Shown: one piece after another, positions 17,153 through 21,079 of the stretch
Layout: each line of letters begins with the position of its first letter
Position numbering within the stretch: position 1 is the stretch's first letter
DNA from: a virus
IMG/VR virus record: IMGVR_UViG_3300010296_000116
Location: 1 to 21,196 of that record
Length of the DNA stretch: 21,196 nt
Reading direction: 5' to 3' (one strand)
The notes under the pieces: model-generated
Seen by the model: only the letters and a program-made list of their open reading frames with translations
Database searches by the model: none
What the model was told of the DNA's origin: nothing
Made by a program: the position numbers and the translations under genes

Positions 17153-17557
17153 TCAACCTAGATCAATCTTTACCTGAATATCTCCTAGCACTTCGGCCTT
17201 CGTCCTATCCGGTGGCTTGAAGCCTGTCCGGTCCAAGATGTCCTTCGACGCTTCGAGTTGAACGTACTCTGAGCGGGCTTCCGTAGCCAGCGTTACCATC
17301 CTCGCAGCAGCGCGTGCCGCGTTGGTCCCAAGGTGCTCTGCTACTGCCTTCAGCATATACGCTTGAACATGCGGTAACTTGAGGGTTTTCTGTGCCGCGA
17401 CCCTACCACCTTCACTGTCCTTATAGCCCGCCTGTACGGAGGCCTCCTTCACCGTACATCCAGTACTTACTAATGTATCAACGAGGGCTGCTTGCTTGTC
17501 CGTTAATTCACGGCTCGGTGTCGCTTCTGCAACTGTCTTTGCTACAACGTTACTCAT
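17153..17557 (-). CDS. terS: Terminase small subunit
   Basis: 134 aa, ATG at 17557 with AGAGGT eight bases upstream. Residues about 18-65 form a helix-turn-helix-like module (LTDKQAALVDTLVSTGCTVK, EASVQAGYKDS, and KTLKLPHVQAYML), as in small terminases that recognise the packaging site. A middle oligomerisation helix and a C-terminal DILDRTGFKPPDR segment, frequent in this family, follow. It is first in the minus-strand late region and directly borders the large non-coding region, where its binding site may lie. It is separated from TerL by seven small features rather than adjacent. Confidence 0.85.
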   Translation of the reverse strand: MSNVVAKTVAEATPSRELTDKQAALVDTLVSTGCTVKEASVQAGYKDSEGGRVAAQKTLKLPHVQAYMLKAVAEHLGTNAARAAARMVTLATEARSEYVQLEASKDILDRTGFKPPDRTKAEVLGDIQVKIDLG

Positions 17558-17604
17558 ATCGGATACCTCTTAAAACAAAGAGAGACACACTCTAATCTAC
17601 CTGT

Positions 17605-17616
17605 CAACGCACAGTG
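17605..17616 (-). promoter_or_regulatory. Repeated TGTGCGTTG motif, copy 4 (upstream of TerS)
   Basis: Minus strand reads CACTGTGCGTTG, differing from the others in the bases before TGTGCGTTG. It lies 48 bp upstream of the TerS start. The overlapping TTGACA resembles a -35 box, but no -10 hexamer follows at the right distance, which favours a separate promoter or binding site. Confidence 0.45.
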
Positions 17617-17665
17617 TATGCCATTGATTACGCTAGTGGAATTCTTATTGTTTCACGCACACCGC

Positions 17666-17676
17666 CCCCTGCGGGG
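17666..17676. repeat. Short GC hairpin CCCCTGCGGGG
   Basis: Perfect 4-bp GC stem with TGC loop in non-coding DNA. Very similar hairpins with a TTC loop occur at 17824-17834 and 19063-19073, all outside genes. Confidence 0.5.
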
Positions 17677-17733
17677 TCGATGCGCTATTTGTCGGATTAG
17701 TCTCCGTCCTCACTCACTCTTCCCGCTCAGGCC

Positions 17734-17766
17734 TCGCTCGCTATCGCTTCGCTGCGTTTCTTCGCT
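17734..17766. repeat. Cluster of five TCGCT (AGCGA) pentamers
   Basis: TCGCT starts at 17734, 17738, 17744, 17749 and 17762; further copies lie at 17862 and 18029. Five copies in 33 bp in a non-coding region next to TerS resemble short iterons for a DNA-binding protein, such as a packaging or replication initiator site. The role is a hypothesis. Confidence 0.5.
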
Positions 17767-17823
17767 GCAACCTTCGCGCAATCTATACCAACAACCAGAG
17801 CCACAAGCGACTCGTTGCTTCGT

Positions 17824-17834
17824 CCCCTTCGGGG
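17824..17834. repeat. Short GC hairpin CCCCTTCGGGG
   Basis: Perfect 4-bp GC stem with TTC loop, followed directly by the palindrome CGGGCCCG. An identical 11-mer lies at 19063-19073. Confidence 0.5.
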
Positions 17835-17965
17835 CCGGGCCCGTTCCGGTCCCTCTCGCACTCGCTGCTTGGCTACCACCGAGCTTCCCTACTCCCCTCG
17901 TTGCTGGTTTGCGCCCACACACGCCCTACGTGCAAGCACTCCGGGCGCGTATCATACAAAATTGC

Positions 17966-18098
17966 TGCGTCAAGACTCCATTTTTTCCCAACCGTTTATC
18001 CTGTTGCTACTTCTGGCCAAGCTTACTGTCGCTCTGCTTCTTACGACATCCTAGCTGTAAAAAAATGGCCCGCTTCCAGCGGCTTCGGTCTTGACGCA
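17966..18098. repeat. 11-bp inverted-repeat pair TGCGTCAAGAC / GTCTTGACGCA
   Basis: Arms at 17966-17976 and 18088-18098 are exact reverse complements, 111 bp apart, in the region upstream of the first plus-strand gene. They could be two binding sites for one regulator, or chance. Confidence 0.4.
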
Positions 18099-18169
18099 TC
18101 ACCGCTACGCTATTTTGCACGATCTAGTGGGCAAACCAACAACAAGGTTGGCAACAAGGAGTCCAAAAC

Positions 18170-18355
18170 ATGACTAACTACTTCGACCTCATCGACATCC
18201 TCGACGAAGAATTCGACGAACTCGACGACTCGTTCCTCGACCGCGTTCTTCTAGGCTTCTCGACACGCCCCGACTTCTGGGACCAGCTCGATGACGACGC
18301 TGCTGCACTACTTGACATGCATCTCCACATCACCTTCCCACAGGAGAAAATCTAA
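18170..18355 (+). CDS. Small, very acidic protein, first gene of plus-strand operon
   Basis: 61 aa, ATG at 18170 with AAGGAG eight bases upstream. It reads MTNYFDLIDILDEEFDELDD and contains 17 aspartates or glutamates against three lysines or arginines, a net charge near -14. Codons end strongly in C. It overlaps the next start (TAATG). First position, small size and dense, spaced acidic side chains resemble the situation of T7 gp0.3 (Ocr), a DNA-mimic antirestriction protein, but there is no sequence similarity I can point to and it is half the length. Family not recognised; DNA mimicry is a hypothesis. Confidence 0.8.
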   Translation: MTNYFDLIDILDEEFDELDDSFLDRVLLGFSTRPDFWDQLDDDAAALLDMHLHITFPQEKI

Positions 18356-18459
18356 TGACTGACTGGCTCTATCCAATGCTTGCTGTAGTTACACCGTTTG
18401 GCGCTCTCTTGGGCGCTTGCTTCATCGCCATCTATCTTAACGAACGTGAAGGACTCTAG
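18355..18459 (+). CDS. Tiny single-pass membrane protein, 34 aa
   Basis: ATG at 18355 overlaps the preceding stop (TAATG), and the stop at 18457-18459 is followed two bases later by the next ATG. Residues about 4-27 (LYPMLAVVTPFGALLGACFI) form one membrane helix, with NEREGL after it. The tight packing supports translation. Possible roles include altering the host membrane or a holin-like function; none can be chosen. Confidence 0.65.
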   Translation: MTDWLYPMLAVVTPFGALLGACFIAIYLNEREGL

Positions 18460-18461
18460 AC

Positions 18462-18974
18462 ATGACACAGAACGTAGTTTCCATCTCCGAATCCGTTGAA
18501 CACGCCTACGAACAGCCTGCCGTGCCTTCCCTCGACAGCGGAGCTGCCGCTGACGCCGCGTCCTCCTTCTTCGCTAGCCTTCAAGAGTTCATAGATAGCA
18601 GCGAGTGGGACAAAAACAGCGTATGGTTCCTCGCCCGCAGCATCATTGGCTGCATCGACCGCAAAGTTGCCTACATCGAAGAAGAAGGCCTCCCCAAGAA
18701 GGCCCAGTACCTCCAAGACCTGATGCGCGCTAGCACTCGCACAGAGATCGACATGACCAAGTTCGACGAAGTCCACATGCAGGCAGCTACAATGGAGGCA
18801 ACAGCACACGCCTTCGCAGAGCTTTCCCTCAACTTCAAACAGGCGCTTGCCGACTACACCGGCCAACCATATCGGCCATACACAGAACAAATCGACAATC
18901 GCGCCCAGGTCGCAGAATACCACACCGCCGAGATGTCAGCCGTCGCCGACAAGTTTTCCAAATACCTCAAGTAA
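18462..18974 (+). CDS. Unknown 170-aa helical protein
   Basis: ATG at 18462, 2 bp after the previous stop. It starts MTQNVVSISESVEHAYEQPA and is predicted mostly helical, with an acidic N-terminal half and segments such as VWFLARSIIGCIDRKVAYIE and QAATMEATAHAFAELSLNFK. No domain, membrane segment or catalytic motif is recognisable. It is the last gene before a strong terminator and is the largest plus-strand product. Codons favour C in third position, as in the first gene. The frame is well supported; the function is unknown. Confidence 0.8.
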   Translation: MTQNVVSISESVEHAYEQPAVPSLDSGAAADAASSFFASLQEFIDSSEWDKNSVWFLARSIIGCIDRKVAYIEEEGLPKKAQYLQDLMRASTRTEIDMTKFDEVHMQAATMEATAHAFAELSLNFKQALADYTGQPYRPYTEQIDNRAQVAEYHTAEMSAVADKFSKYLK

Positions 18975-18987
18975 CGCTAACCTCACC

Positions 18988-19029
18988 GGAGGGCACTCTG
19001 CCTCGTGCAGCGTGTCCTCCCCCCTTTTT
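18988..19029 (+). terminator. Strong rho-independent terminator after the 170-aa gene
   Basis: GGAGG (18988-18992) pairs with CCTCC (19016-19020). The stem continues with a G-T pair, CAC/GTG, one mismatch and CTGC/GCAG around a 5-base loop, followed by CCCC and five Ts at 19025-19029. It closes the first plus-strand transcription unit. Confidence 0.8.
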
Positions 19030-19061
19030 ACTCGCTCGCCATCTACCATGCTCCGCCCCTC

Positions 19062-19074
19062 GCCCCTTCGGGGC
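19062..19074. repeat. GC hairpin GCCCCTTCGGGGC
   Basis: 5-bp perfect stem with TTC loop, containing the same 11-mer as at 17824-17834. It lies in the otherwise empty 150-bp gap between the terminator and the next small gene. Confidence 0.5.
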
Positions 19075-19124
19075 TCGGGGCTCCCAGCATCACAGTTCAC
19101 CCGCATGGCCTAACGGAGTTCGCA

Positions 19125-19229
19125 ATGCCACGCTATACCAAACAATTCCTGCTAGAAATCGCACTTGGCACGTGCATCGGCTCAACTGCCGCTTTCCTCG
19201 CACTTCTGTGCATCGCACTATTCGCCTAA
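19125..19229 (+). CDS. Tiny single-pass membrane protein, 34 aa
   Basis: I chose the ATG at 19125, preceded by GGAG at six bases (longer readings run through the hairpin region). It reads MPRYTKQFLLEIALGTCIGS, then TAAFLALLCIALFA. The short basic start and one hydrophobic helix (about 9-33) suggest an inner-membrane protein with the N-terminus in the cytoplasm. It is the same length as the membrane protein at 18355 but not clearly similar. Function unknown. Confidence 0.65.
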   Translation: MPRYTKQFLLEIALGTCIGSTAAFLALLCIALFA

Positions 19230-19239
19230 AGGATCGCCA

Positions 19240-19398
19240 ATGTCCGACTCTCGCAAAGAAAAACTGCACGACTTCGTGGAGAAAGCTGACCCAATCATCA
19301 CCCAGGTAGACGACTATGCCACGACTACTTTCGGCTGGTTCAAACCTATCGCCTACGTCATCGCAGCAGCTCTAGTCCTCAAATACATCCTCAACTAA
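19240..19398 (+). CDS. Small C-tail-anchored membrane protein, 52 aa
   Basis: ATG at 19240 with AAGGA seven bases upstream, 10 bp after the previous stop. The first 30 residues are soluble and charged (MSDSRKEKLHDFVEKADPII), and residues about 34-50 are a membrane helix (FKPIAYVIAAALVLKYIL). Tail-anchored topology could place the charged part in the cytoplasm. It is last before the hairpin and repeat region. Not a recognised family. Confidence 0.7.
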   Translation: MSDSRKEKLHDFVEKADPIITQVDDYATTTFGWFKPIAYVIAAALVLKYILN

Positions 19399-19404
19399 CG
19401 GGGT

Positions 19405-19442
19405 CGCGGCGCGCAGCGCCGCGCCTCCAGACTCACTGGAGG
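19405..19442. other. Two tandem perfect hairpins
   Basis: CGCGGCGC/GCGCCGCG (19405-19412, 19416-19423; 3-base loop) is followed at once by CCTCCAG/CTGGAGG (19424-19430, 19436-19442; 5-base loop). No T run follows, so this is an RNA structure or processing element, or a rho-assisted stop, rather than an ordinary terminator. Confidence 0.6.
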
Positions 19443-19450
19443 TCACCCGC

Positions 19451-19494
19451 AAGTTTCTACAGAAAGAAACTCACCAGAAAGTTTCTACAGAAAG
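19451..19494 (+). promoter_or_regulatory. Paired 16-bp direct repeats with internal dyad
   Basis: AAGTTTCTACAGAAAG occurs at 19451-19466 and 19479-19494 (28-bp period). Each copy contains the dyad TTTCTACAGAAA. The second copy ends in the ribosome binding site (AAAGGAG, 19491-19497) of the zinc-ribbon gene. This arrangement suits a repressor operator or a translational control site. Confidence 0.55.
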
Positions 19495-19503
19495 GAGTTT
19501 TCT

Positions 19504-19755
19504 ATGATCTGCCCCGACTGTGACGAATTGCGTCACCCGGATCGTCCTTGTCACTACAAGATGTCCGATGCTGAACGCCAAAGTTTATACCTCCGAGCAT
19601 ACCAAGACATAGAAGTCATCTGTCCGTCCTGCAAAGCTTGGGTCAACATTAACGCAGTACGTGACAACAAAGACAACTGCCCCAAATGCAAAACAGCACT
19701 TCGCTACTGCCTTGGATTCTCTGGTCATCAATGGCTCGAAAGGAAAGAACAATGA
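19504..19755 (+). CDS. Zinc-ribbon protein, 83 aa
   Basis: ATG at 19504 with AAAGGAG six bases upstream. C40-C43 (CPSC) and C59-C62 (CPKC) form a classic zinc ribbon. C3-C6 (CPDC) with H11 and C16-H17 could hold a second zinc. Such small zinc-ribbon proteins in phages often bind nucleic acid or modify host transcription, but no specific family is recognised. Its own ribosome binding site overlaps one of the direct repeats, suggesting regulation. The stop overlaps the next start (ATGA). Confidence 0.8.
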   Translation: MICPDCDELRHPDRPCHYKMSDAERQSLYLRAYQDIEVICPSCKAWVNINAVRDNKDNCPKCKTALRYCLGFSGHQWLERKEQ

Positions 19756-19943
19756 TGGGACAAACTAGAATCGCACGAACCATTGGTGCGTTCGTGCTCT
19801 ACTATTTAATCCTAATGATAGTCTCTCTCTGGGGTGCACTGCTCGCAGGCGTAAACCCAACGATGATTCTATCAATCGTATCCGCACCGTACTGGATACT
19901 CGTGATCCTCACCACAATCCAATTAACTAAAAGGATCGGATAA
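19752..19943 (+). CDS. Small two-helix membrane protein, 63 aa
   Basis: ATG at 19752 overlaps the zinc-ribbon stop as ATGA. Two membrane helices, about residues 10-34 (TIGAFVLYYLILMIVSLWGA) and 38-58 (MILSIVSAPYWILVILTTIQ), flank a short loop, with basic residues at both ends. Size and topology would fit a class II-type holin, but it is in a plus-strand operon of small unknown genes and no endolysin is visible, so this is only one option. Confidence 0.7.
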   Translation: MMGQTRIARTIGAFVLYYLILMIVSLWGALLAGVNPTMILSIVSAPYWILVILTTIQLTKRIG

Positions 19944-20128
19944 TGCTGAGCTATTATGAACGCTACACAGCAGCAACACATACCGTCATGTTTCTCATGG
20001 ATCATTCCGACAAGAAATGGACACCAGAAGATGCAGCATATCGCGCAGCCATGACGCACGGCCTTGGCCTTGCCCAATACGGACGACTGGTCCGTGAAGC
20101 AAAAGAACGCTACGGAGACGCAGACTAA
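19943..20128 (+). CDS. Unknown small protein, 61 aa
   Basis: ATG at 19943 overlaps the previous stop (TAATG), and its own stop overlaps the next start in the same way. AAGGA lies about eight bases upstream. Reads MLSYYERYTAATHTVMFLMD, then DKKWTPEDAAYRAAMTHGLG, and ends in a charged helix. It looks like a small soluble helical protein. Not recognised. Confidence 0.7.
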   Translation: MLSYYERYTAATHTVMFLMDHSDKKWTPEDAAYRAAMTHGLGLAQYGRLVREAKERYGDAD

Positions 20129-20481
20129 TGGGACTGGATCAATTCGCAGAGTTTCGTACAGAGCCAACCGCTAGGTTTTACTGGCGCAAACACGCCGCGC
20201 TACAGGAGTACATGGAACGCCTTTGGGTGGATCAGACAGGACGACCAGCATCAACTCTCAACTGTGAAGACTTGCACCTCTACAAAGAGGACATCGAAGA
20301 CCTCCGCAAGGCTATCTTGTCAGGCTTCAAAGACTATCGATCCGACGGTGGCTTCCTCTACGGACACGAGTATCAGGACGAGTCCGTCAAAGAATACCGA
20401 GAAGACGACTTACGATTCTGTGACGAAGCCATAAAAGCCATCGAACGTGGTGAAACCGTCATCTACTCATGTTGGTGGTAA
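20128..20481 (+). CDS. MGLDQ/YWRK-family conserved phage protein
   Basis: 117 aa, TAATG overlap with the previous gene. The pattern MGLDQ, FYWRKHAALQEYMERLW, a cysteine-containing loop, then LRKAI, GGFLYGHEY and the final VIYSCWW matches a family found in many phages, often with the end YYQSSW. Database entries sometimes call it phosphoglycerate kinase, which the sequence does not support. This member is shorter than many. Function is unknown; a nucleotide- or host-related early role is only guessed. Confidence 0.85.
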   Translation: MGLDQFAEFRTEPTARFYWRKHAALQEYMERLWVDQTGRPASTLNCEDLHLYKEDIEDLRKAILSGFKDYRSDGGFLYGHEYQDESVKEYREDDLRFCDEAIKAIERGETVIYSCWW

Positions 20482-20677
20482 CAAGACTTTGGCTAAAAGA
20501 AAATACCAGACTGTCTACGATGCAGCGTGCATCGCCTGTCCAGACTGCGCTGAACTAACTTACCAGCAGTTTGTAAGAATTCTAAGAACATGGCTGGAAG
20601 ATTCGTCTAAGCTCAACTACACGACCAAAGATGGGGATATCCTTAATCTCGTGAGACACGTAATACCTGTAAGTTGA
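20447..20677 (+). CDS. Possible small protein, up to 76 aa, start uncertain
   Basis: Open from GTG at 20447 to TGA at 20675-20677; a start inside (for example TTG near 20490) is also possible, and no good ribosome binding site is seen. The readable part includes YDAACIACPDCAELTYQQFV, with a CPDC pair, and a helical region (VRILRTWLEDSSKLNYTTKD). It overlaps the opposite-strand S24-like gene by 96 bp, so one of the two ends may not be as drawn; the S24-like frame has better support. It may be a real last gene of the operon or an accidental frame. Confidence 0.4.
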   Translation: MVKPSSTHVGGNKTLAKRKYQTVYDAACIACPDCAELTYQQFVRILRTWLEDSSKLNYTTKDGDILNLVRHVIPVS

Positions 20678-20860
20678 CGCAGGAACAATGAAAGGAGGCC
20701 TAAACAAATATGGCGCAAATTCTCCATTAGGACGCGCCAAAACTATATCATCTCTTTGATAAGAAACACTTTTATCAAGCTCTATTTCTAGTATATCGCC
20801 AACAAAAATTCCGTACTTATTTAATGAATTTGCGTTACAATGTACTTTAGCAGTTACCAT
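20582..20860 (-). CDS. Stand-alone LexA/CI-type S24 C-terminal domain without DNA-binding domain
   Basis: 92 aa, ATG at 20860 with GGTGA five bases upstream. The alignment to the LexA C-terminal domain is direct. ANSLNKYGIFVGDILEIE corresponds to GDSMKDIGIMDGDLLAVH, with S12 at the catalytic serine and G21-D22 at the GD pair. DDIVLARPNGEF matches GQVVVARIDDEV, and FGRVVELRRI matches the last strand. The catalytic lysine falls at Y51, so self-cleavage is unlikely while the fold and dimer surface seem kept. The helix-turn-helix usually fused in front is absent; a small helix-turn-helix gene lies opposite. It could be a dimerisation partner, antirepressor or UmuD-like protein. The fold is well supported, the role inferred. 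Confidence 0.7.
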   Translation of the reverse strand: MVTAKVHCNANSLNKYGIFVGDILEIELDKSVSYQRDDIVLARPNGEFAPYLFRPPFIVPASTYRYYVSHEIKDIPIFGRVVELRRIFQPCS

Positions 20861-20870
20861 TTTTCACCGC

Positions 20871-20905
20871 TTGCAGAAATGCACAGCTAAGCTGTATAAA
20901 GCTTT
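20871..20905. promoter_or_regulatory. Operator-promoter between S24-like and HTH genes
   Basis: The perfect palindrome ACAGCTAAGCTGT (20883-20895) fills the 45-bp divergent gap. For the plus strand, a weak -35 (TTGCAG, 20871-20876) and a -10-like TATAAA (20895-20900) are 18 bp apart. The -10 is only 5 bp before the ATG at 20906, so the HTH mRNA would be leaderless. Binding to the palindrome would cover the promoter core. Confidence 0.6.
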
Positions 20906-21079
20906 ATGTTTGGATTTCTGCAGAAGCGTTGTCAAGAACAAGGACTGTCTTTAGCTGATGTCGCTAAAGAGGTTGGGGTGTCTCCAACGACTGTCTGGCG
21001 GTGGCAAAAAAACAAATACAACCCTCGCTGGTCAACTGTAGAAGCTATCTTGGCTTACCTCGATGACCACCGAGTCTAA
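20906..21079 (+). CDS. Minimal helix-turn-helix regulator, 57 aa (Cro/CI-type DNA-binding domain only)
   Basis: ATG at 20906, TAA at 21077. Residues about 14-35 (LSLADVAKEVGVSPTTVWRW) are a typical helix-turn-helix with the recognition helix SPTTVWRWQ, and residues 42-52 give a closing helix. The protein ends at residue 57 with no dimerisation domain. There is no ribosome binding site and a -10-like box directly precedes the ATG, as for lambda cI made from PRM. It overlaps the next HTH gene by 17 bp. Likely a Cro-like or split-repressor DNA-binding subunit for the adjacent palindrome. Confidence 0.75.
   Translation: MFGFLQKRCQEQGLSLADVAKEVGVSPTTVWRWQKNKYNPRWSTVEAILAYLDDHRV

Follow-up and report, generated by a model that had tools for sequence, protein, structure and literature searches.

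The closest described precedents for a small, acidic phage protein that imitates DNA come from phage T7. Ocr is a demonstrated DNA mimic that is translated as 117 residues and forms an elongated, curved dimer (according to the part of PMC2806950 available here), and gp5.9, an acidic protein of 52 residues, inhibits RecBCD by DNA mimicry and adopts a parallel coiled-coil dimer (according to the part of PMC9836394 available here). T4 Arn, an inhibitor of McrBC that is annotated as a small acidic anti-restriction protein, is a further point of reference, compared here by description and charge. The 61-residue protein described below is like Ocr in its net-acid density (0.230 against 0.239) and in the setting of its gene, gene 0.3 of T7 likewise being the first of its operon with a 1-nt overlap with gene 0.4; it is unlike Ocr in length, and the targets of Ocr are known. 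It is like gp5.9 in being very small, and the gene of gp5.9 also overlaps a neighbour, in that case the upstream one, by 1 nt. The T7 protein is less acidic (0.154 net per residue) and its dimer structure has been described, whereas the present protein is known from its sequence and from low-confidence models. Arn differs in being longer (92 residues) and less densely charged.

The window, by which we mean the whole stretch of DNA analysed, is an entire virus record of 21,196 bases, assigned to a T7-like podovirus by its structural and terminase genes. The minus strand encodes the portal (Head-tail_con, E 5e-101), capsid, nozzle and terminase small subunit (Terminase_2). The nearest named phage found is Pelagibacter phage EXVC031P Hodr, with 64% identity in TerL and 48% in the terminase small subunit; a literature search on Pelagibacter phage Hodr returned no paper, and a scan of a genome collection with the terminase small subunit matched four marine metagenome-assembled fragments only (52–56% identical). 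The features of the locus are as follows.

17153–17557, minus strand: terminase small subunit (Pfam Terminase_2, E 7.4e-8), the divergent neighbour and synteny anchor.
17558–18169, plus strand: noncoding leader of 612 nt, separating the acidic gene from the divergent gene for the terminase small subunit.
17811–18015, no strand assigned: leader core, 98.0% identical to relative L004 and 97.6% to L005, above every other segment compared.
18156–18161, plus strand: AAGGAG ribosome-binding site, read from the sequence, 8 nt before the ATG of the acidic gene.
18170–18355, plus strand: gene for the 61-residue acidic protein (17 D/E, 3 K/R), with an ATG start and a TAA stop, recognised by homologues and dN/dS.
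18355–18459, plus strand: hydrophobic peptide of 34 residues, single-TM-like, whose ATG overlaps the TAA of the acidic gene by 1 nt.
18462–18974, plus strand: protein of 170 residues with relatives at the head of the plus-strand operon in a wider marine phage group (iterated HMM).

The gene at 18170–18355 had been picked out in a preliminary description as encoding a 61-residue polyacid with 17 acidic against three basic residues, and these counts were reproduced (D13, E4, K1, R2, H2), with a computed pI of about 4.05 and a charge of −14.3 at pH 7. The strong ribosome-binding site described there is the AAGGAG motif listed above, and the starts of the homologues are likewise preceded by AAGGAG or GGAGG. 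Its place as the first plus-strand gene, and first of its operon, fits the anatomy of the locus, where it follows the noncoding leader; in every member with surroundings that were read, the plus-strand genes likewise begin with the acidic one, behind a noncoding leader of about 380–725 nt. Among 1578 non-redundant six-frame ORFs of 50–75 residues from the loci compared, the protein ranks third in net charge per residue; the two above it come from a single gene in near-identical copies, and the top seven also include three homologues of the window protein. The acidity is thus not a matter of chance composition. Seven further viral records have homologues at the same place (L002, L003, L004, L005, L008, L009 and L091); of these records, L002, L003 and L004 share one protein with L006, itself the record of L002, and L008 is cut by the contig end. 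These homologues, together with NG86 estimates of dN/dS (0.37/0.68 against L005 and 0.33/0.89 against L006), exclude a chance ORF, and 18170–18355 is a real, conserved gene. Scans of viral records with a four-member family alignment or with single members gave no further record, and the family was found only in close relatives of the window phage; in Hodr no homologue of the acidic gene was found.

The five distinct members carry 15–18 acidic and 2–4 basic residues, and the other four are 40–59% identical to the window protein. F5, L7, L11, L28 and G29 are invariant in all five. Between members, 12–16 of 15–16 acidic residues stay acidic by column and 16–23 of 18–27 hydrophobic residues stay hydrophobic (19–23 of 23–27 in comparisons with the window), values that are inflated because the alignment favours such matches, so that the shuffle values overstate the retention. 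Taken with the dN/dS estimates, the retained acidic and hydrophobic columns show selection on the protein product. Comparisons with the window place dN/dS of the acidic gene at about 0.37–0.6, against 0.04–0.09 for the terminase small subunit and 0.2–0.25 for the 34-residue peptide (0.54, 0.04 and 0.25, respectively, against L005). The acidic gene is 68–69% identical in such comparisons, and its flanks are 84–98% identical; against L005 the identities are 97.6% for the leader core, 95.6% for the terminase small subunit, 87.3% for the 34-residue gene and 67.8% for the acidic gene. Such low identity relative to the flanks would be expected if the gene were a host-facing module open to exchange. 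Against the same relative, dS descends from the acidic gene (0.68) through the peptide gene (0.35) to the terminase gene (0.17), and the high value in the acidic gene makes it probable that replacement by a diverged allele, and not an arms race or fast protein change alone, accounts for some of its divergence.

The alignment also shows that the acidic run varies in length: L005/L006 have lost two residues within it by deletion, and L009 has an insertion. Such variation argues against a rigid pattern of phosphate spacing and hence bears against DNA mimicry. It bears equally on a metal-binding, EF-hand-like function, which runs such as DEEFDELDD and DDD might call to mind; a site of this kind sits poorly with a run that changes length among homologues, and we give metal binding hardly any credence. 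The EF-hand itself was rejected, as no EF-hand-like or DxDxDG pattern is present in the five members.

Downstream, the acidic gene's stop and the next ATG share 1 nt, both in the window and in the four relatives read at that point. Homologues or analogues of the TM-like peptide, 32–34 residues long, directly follow the acidic gene in L005, L006 and L091. Toxin–antitoxin pairs typically place a small acidic antitoxin gene first, and the acidic gene precedes the peptide gene in that order, overlapping it by 1 nt in the window, L005, L006 and L091; the acidic protein might thus be an antitoxin-like or regulatory cytosolic partner of the overlapping membrane peptide. We regard such a partnership as unlikely, given that in L009 a 69-residue gene comes next and the TM-like peptide only one gene later, and that a PADLOC search with the acidic and 170-residue proteins gave no match. 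Strict pairing of the two genes was rejected on the same L009 arrangement. The 170-residue protein that follows has no significant Pfam or PHROG match. An iterated HMM recovered a 170-residue-like gene in 53 loci, a count that takes in the window itself as well as pieces of single records that overlap one another, and that comes from a profile still growing when stopped, with drift unchecked. Hodr resembles the window in that its 170-residue-like gene also heads the plus-strand operon, and differs in that its first plus-strand gene encodes 147 residues. Between close relatives, the 170-residue gene is even more diverged than the acidic gene (44.7% identical to L004).

Upstream, in the leader, a plus-strand ORF at 17618–18094 was rejected as a gene because indels of 10–11 nt relative to L005, L006 and L007 break its frame. 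The fold of 17640–18169 has a minimum free energy of −153.7 (z −2.4), and the same region has no Rfam match. The near-identity of the leader core in L004 and L005 may be set beside the genes around it in those relatives, which are 45–96% identical. An exact 32-mer from the core is present in four viral records only, and BLAST of the core against phages and plasmids gave no match. The core contains a long inverted repeat, GTCAAGAC ... GTCTTGAC. In the covariation analysis of the leader, 144 of 165 pairs are invariant, three show two-sided changes and 13 contain a break, evidence too sparse to establish an RNA; the core could be an RNA, or a packaging or replication site. Position 17602–17616 reads TGTCAACGCACAGTG, which occurs once in the window; among 108 loci its 13-base core is restricted to this phage clade, once in each. 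The 13-base core lies a short way upstream of the gene for the terminase small subunit, its minus strand contains TTGACA, and TGTCAACGCACAGTG may be part of a late promoter.

The position of the acidic gene, between this structured-looking leader and an overlapping gene, would also suit a leader ORF with an inert product, translated only to couple or regulate the genes behind it. We consider such a role highly improbable for a gene with dN/dS below 1 and retained acidic and hydrophobic columns, and on these two grounds a leader ORF devoid of a functional product was rejected.

To place the charge in context, a base-rate set was compiled of 194 annotated proteins of 40–120 residues from T7, T4 (about 150 of 169 kb, leaving out the stretch 100001–118903), lambda and Hodr, with coordinates listed by hand such that some genes in range may have been missed. 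The set has a mean net-acid density of about 0 (sd 0.087). At 14/61, the acidic protein lies 2.6 sd out, and only Ocr exceeds it. Nine proteins of the set reach at least 0.15, namely Ocr, T4 49.1, lambda NinF, T4 Frd.3, Hodr 14955, T4 Tk.1, T4 49.3, T7 gp5.9 and Hodr 22316; two of the nine, Ocr and gp5.9, are demonstrated DNA mimics, and the other seven have no DNA-mimic annotation. Most of the very acidic small proteins in the set are without known function. Known inhibitors can be far less acidic, as illustrated by T4 Arn (0.098) and T7 gp2 (0.078 net per residue), and a test on charge therefore misses inhibitors too. The charge raises the odds of DNA mimicry and does not decide the matter.

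The same comparison bears on a role in host takeover in which no DNA is imitated. T7 gp2 and T4 AsiA bind RNA polymerase or sigma, also as annotated, and the acidic protein could be a small takeover or accessory protein that presents a hydrophobic-plus-acidic patch to a host or phage protein. Hydrophobic positions are retained along with acidic ones, which fits a specific protein interface; gp2 and AsiA (0.022) are nevertheless much less acidic, and the charge of the family would be extreme for this role. We see takeover by such a patch as a possible account, nearly as likely as the one that we favour below.

Comparisons with known families and folds gave no counterpart. The acidic protein has no Pfam, PHROG or PADLOC match (the best of the five members in PHROGs having E 0.14) and no match among INPHARED phages at E ≤ 10, and tblastn of two other family members against phages gave E of 5 or more, or nothing. 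The lack of sequence similarity to Ocr proposed at the outset was borne out, membership of the Ocr sequence family being rejected on a best BLASTP E of 6.5 over 15 residues; the gp5.9 sequence family was likewise rejected, with no alignment at E ≤ 100. A profile search of the PDB gave matches at E 0.71 or worse, with no Ocr chain and no known mimic among them. Structure prediction, the check proposed in the preliminary description, did yield helical models, but at low confidence only: with the five-member alignment as input, AlphaFold reached pLDDT 58 for the window protein and 62 with L091 as query. A comparison of surface charge with Ocr, ArdA and Gam would be unjustified on models of such confidence. 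Foldseek on these models returned nothing with E below 4, and significant helical amphipathicity was found in none of the five members.

The proposal that the protein is a DNA mimic thus keeps its footing in the extreme net-acid density, in an acidity that is kept despite divergence, in a gene that diverges much faster than its flanks and in a second acidic family that uses the same slot (see below), and loses it in homology to mimics and in any match of fold or family; DNA mimicry is plausible but unproven. Our tentative choice is a DNA-mimic-like protein that inhibits one of the DNA-handling proteins of the host, nearer to T7 gp5.9 than to Ocr in size. In the mechanism that we infer, in which folding, binding partner, DNA mimicry and time of production are all put conditionally, the gene product would be soluble, small and acidic, would probably contain helices, and its carboxylates would occupy the basic DNA-binding surface of the host protein. 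Candidate targets are a restriction enzyme, a nuclease of RecBCD/AddAB type, a nucleoid protein or RNA polymerase, and the outcome would be a phage genome that is protected or favoured, in a mode like that of Ocr or, closer in size, of gp5.9. As a first guess at a named target we would put an end-processing nuclease of RecBCD/AddAB type, a guess more likely wrong by far than right, made because relative L004 carries, further along its plus strand, a RecE-like exonuclease (PHROG E 4e-32) and an SSB (Pfam E 9e-25). Overall, we narrowly favour the DNA-mimic-like inhibitor, closely followed by takeover through other protein binding, and then by the antitoxin-like partner, the leader ORF and metal binding, with the remainder left to other alternatives.

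On the timing of expression, no sigma70-like promoter was found in 17400–20950, against 3.0 expected from shuffles. Further along, 20582–20860 (minus strand) encodes a 92-residue protein that is weakly UmuD-like (PHROG E 0.01) and has no HTH match, and a separate HTH gene adjoins it at 20906–21079 (plus strand); the corresponding area of L091 encodes a 231-residue Peptidase_S24 repressor-like protein. The 92-residue protein and the HTH gene may be a split or truncated repressor. Given the UmuD-like and HTH genes at 20582–21079, the replication arm may be served by a promoter of its own, and the operon that includes the acidic gene may run on a separate schedule.

The slot after the leader was surveyed in 40 loci anchored on the terminase small subunit, these being the loci of 80 with a recognised 170-residue-like gene; eight of the 40 are duplicates by their last 60 residues. 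An SD-preceded ATG ORF of at least 28 residues lies between the terminase gene and the 170-residue-like gene in 11 loci. Six of these ORFs are strongly acidic (net −12 to −14), in L006 and L009, which belong to the present family, and in L034, L059, L050 and L064; L068, L069 and L077 have less acidic genes of 75–89 residues, and L023 and L040 have ORFs of 29–39 residues with weak sites. No such ORF was found in the other 29 loci, where the leader seems to be followed immediately by the 170-residue-like gene. The acidic gene is therefore extra to the conserved operon head and sits in a slot that several small genes use.

A second, unrelated-looking acidic family of 41–52 residues uses the same slot (L034:2279–2434, L059, L050:1569–1691 and L064). 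Its C-termini (EEEEDTIIF, DDEDTIEF, DDEEDTIWF) resemble the acidic I-x-F tip of bacterial SSB, and no PHROG match was obtained for the L050 and L034 proteins. The place after the leader might be an exchange slot for small acidic inhibitors, in which unrelated families mimic DNA and the SSB tail against host repair or defence proteins, a broad scheme that we consider very unlikely as stated. The nearly invariant leader and the second acidic family in the same slot merit a separate look, and the first gene after a long leader opposite the terminase small-subunit gene offers a rule for finding candidates. To our knowledge, few counter-defence proteins of uncultured marine phages have been characterised; should the acidic protein prove to be a DNA mimic, it would rank with the smallest described and come from just such phages.
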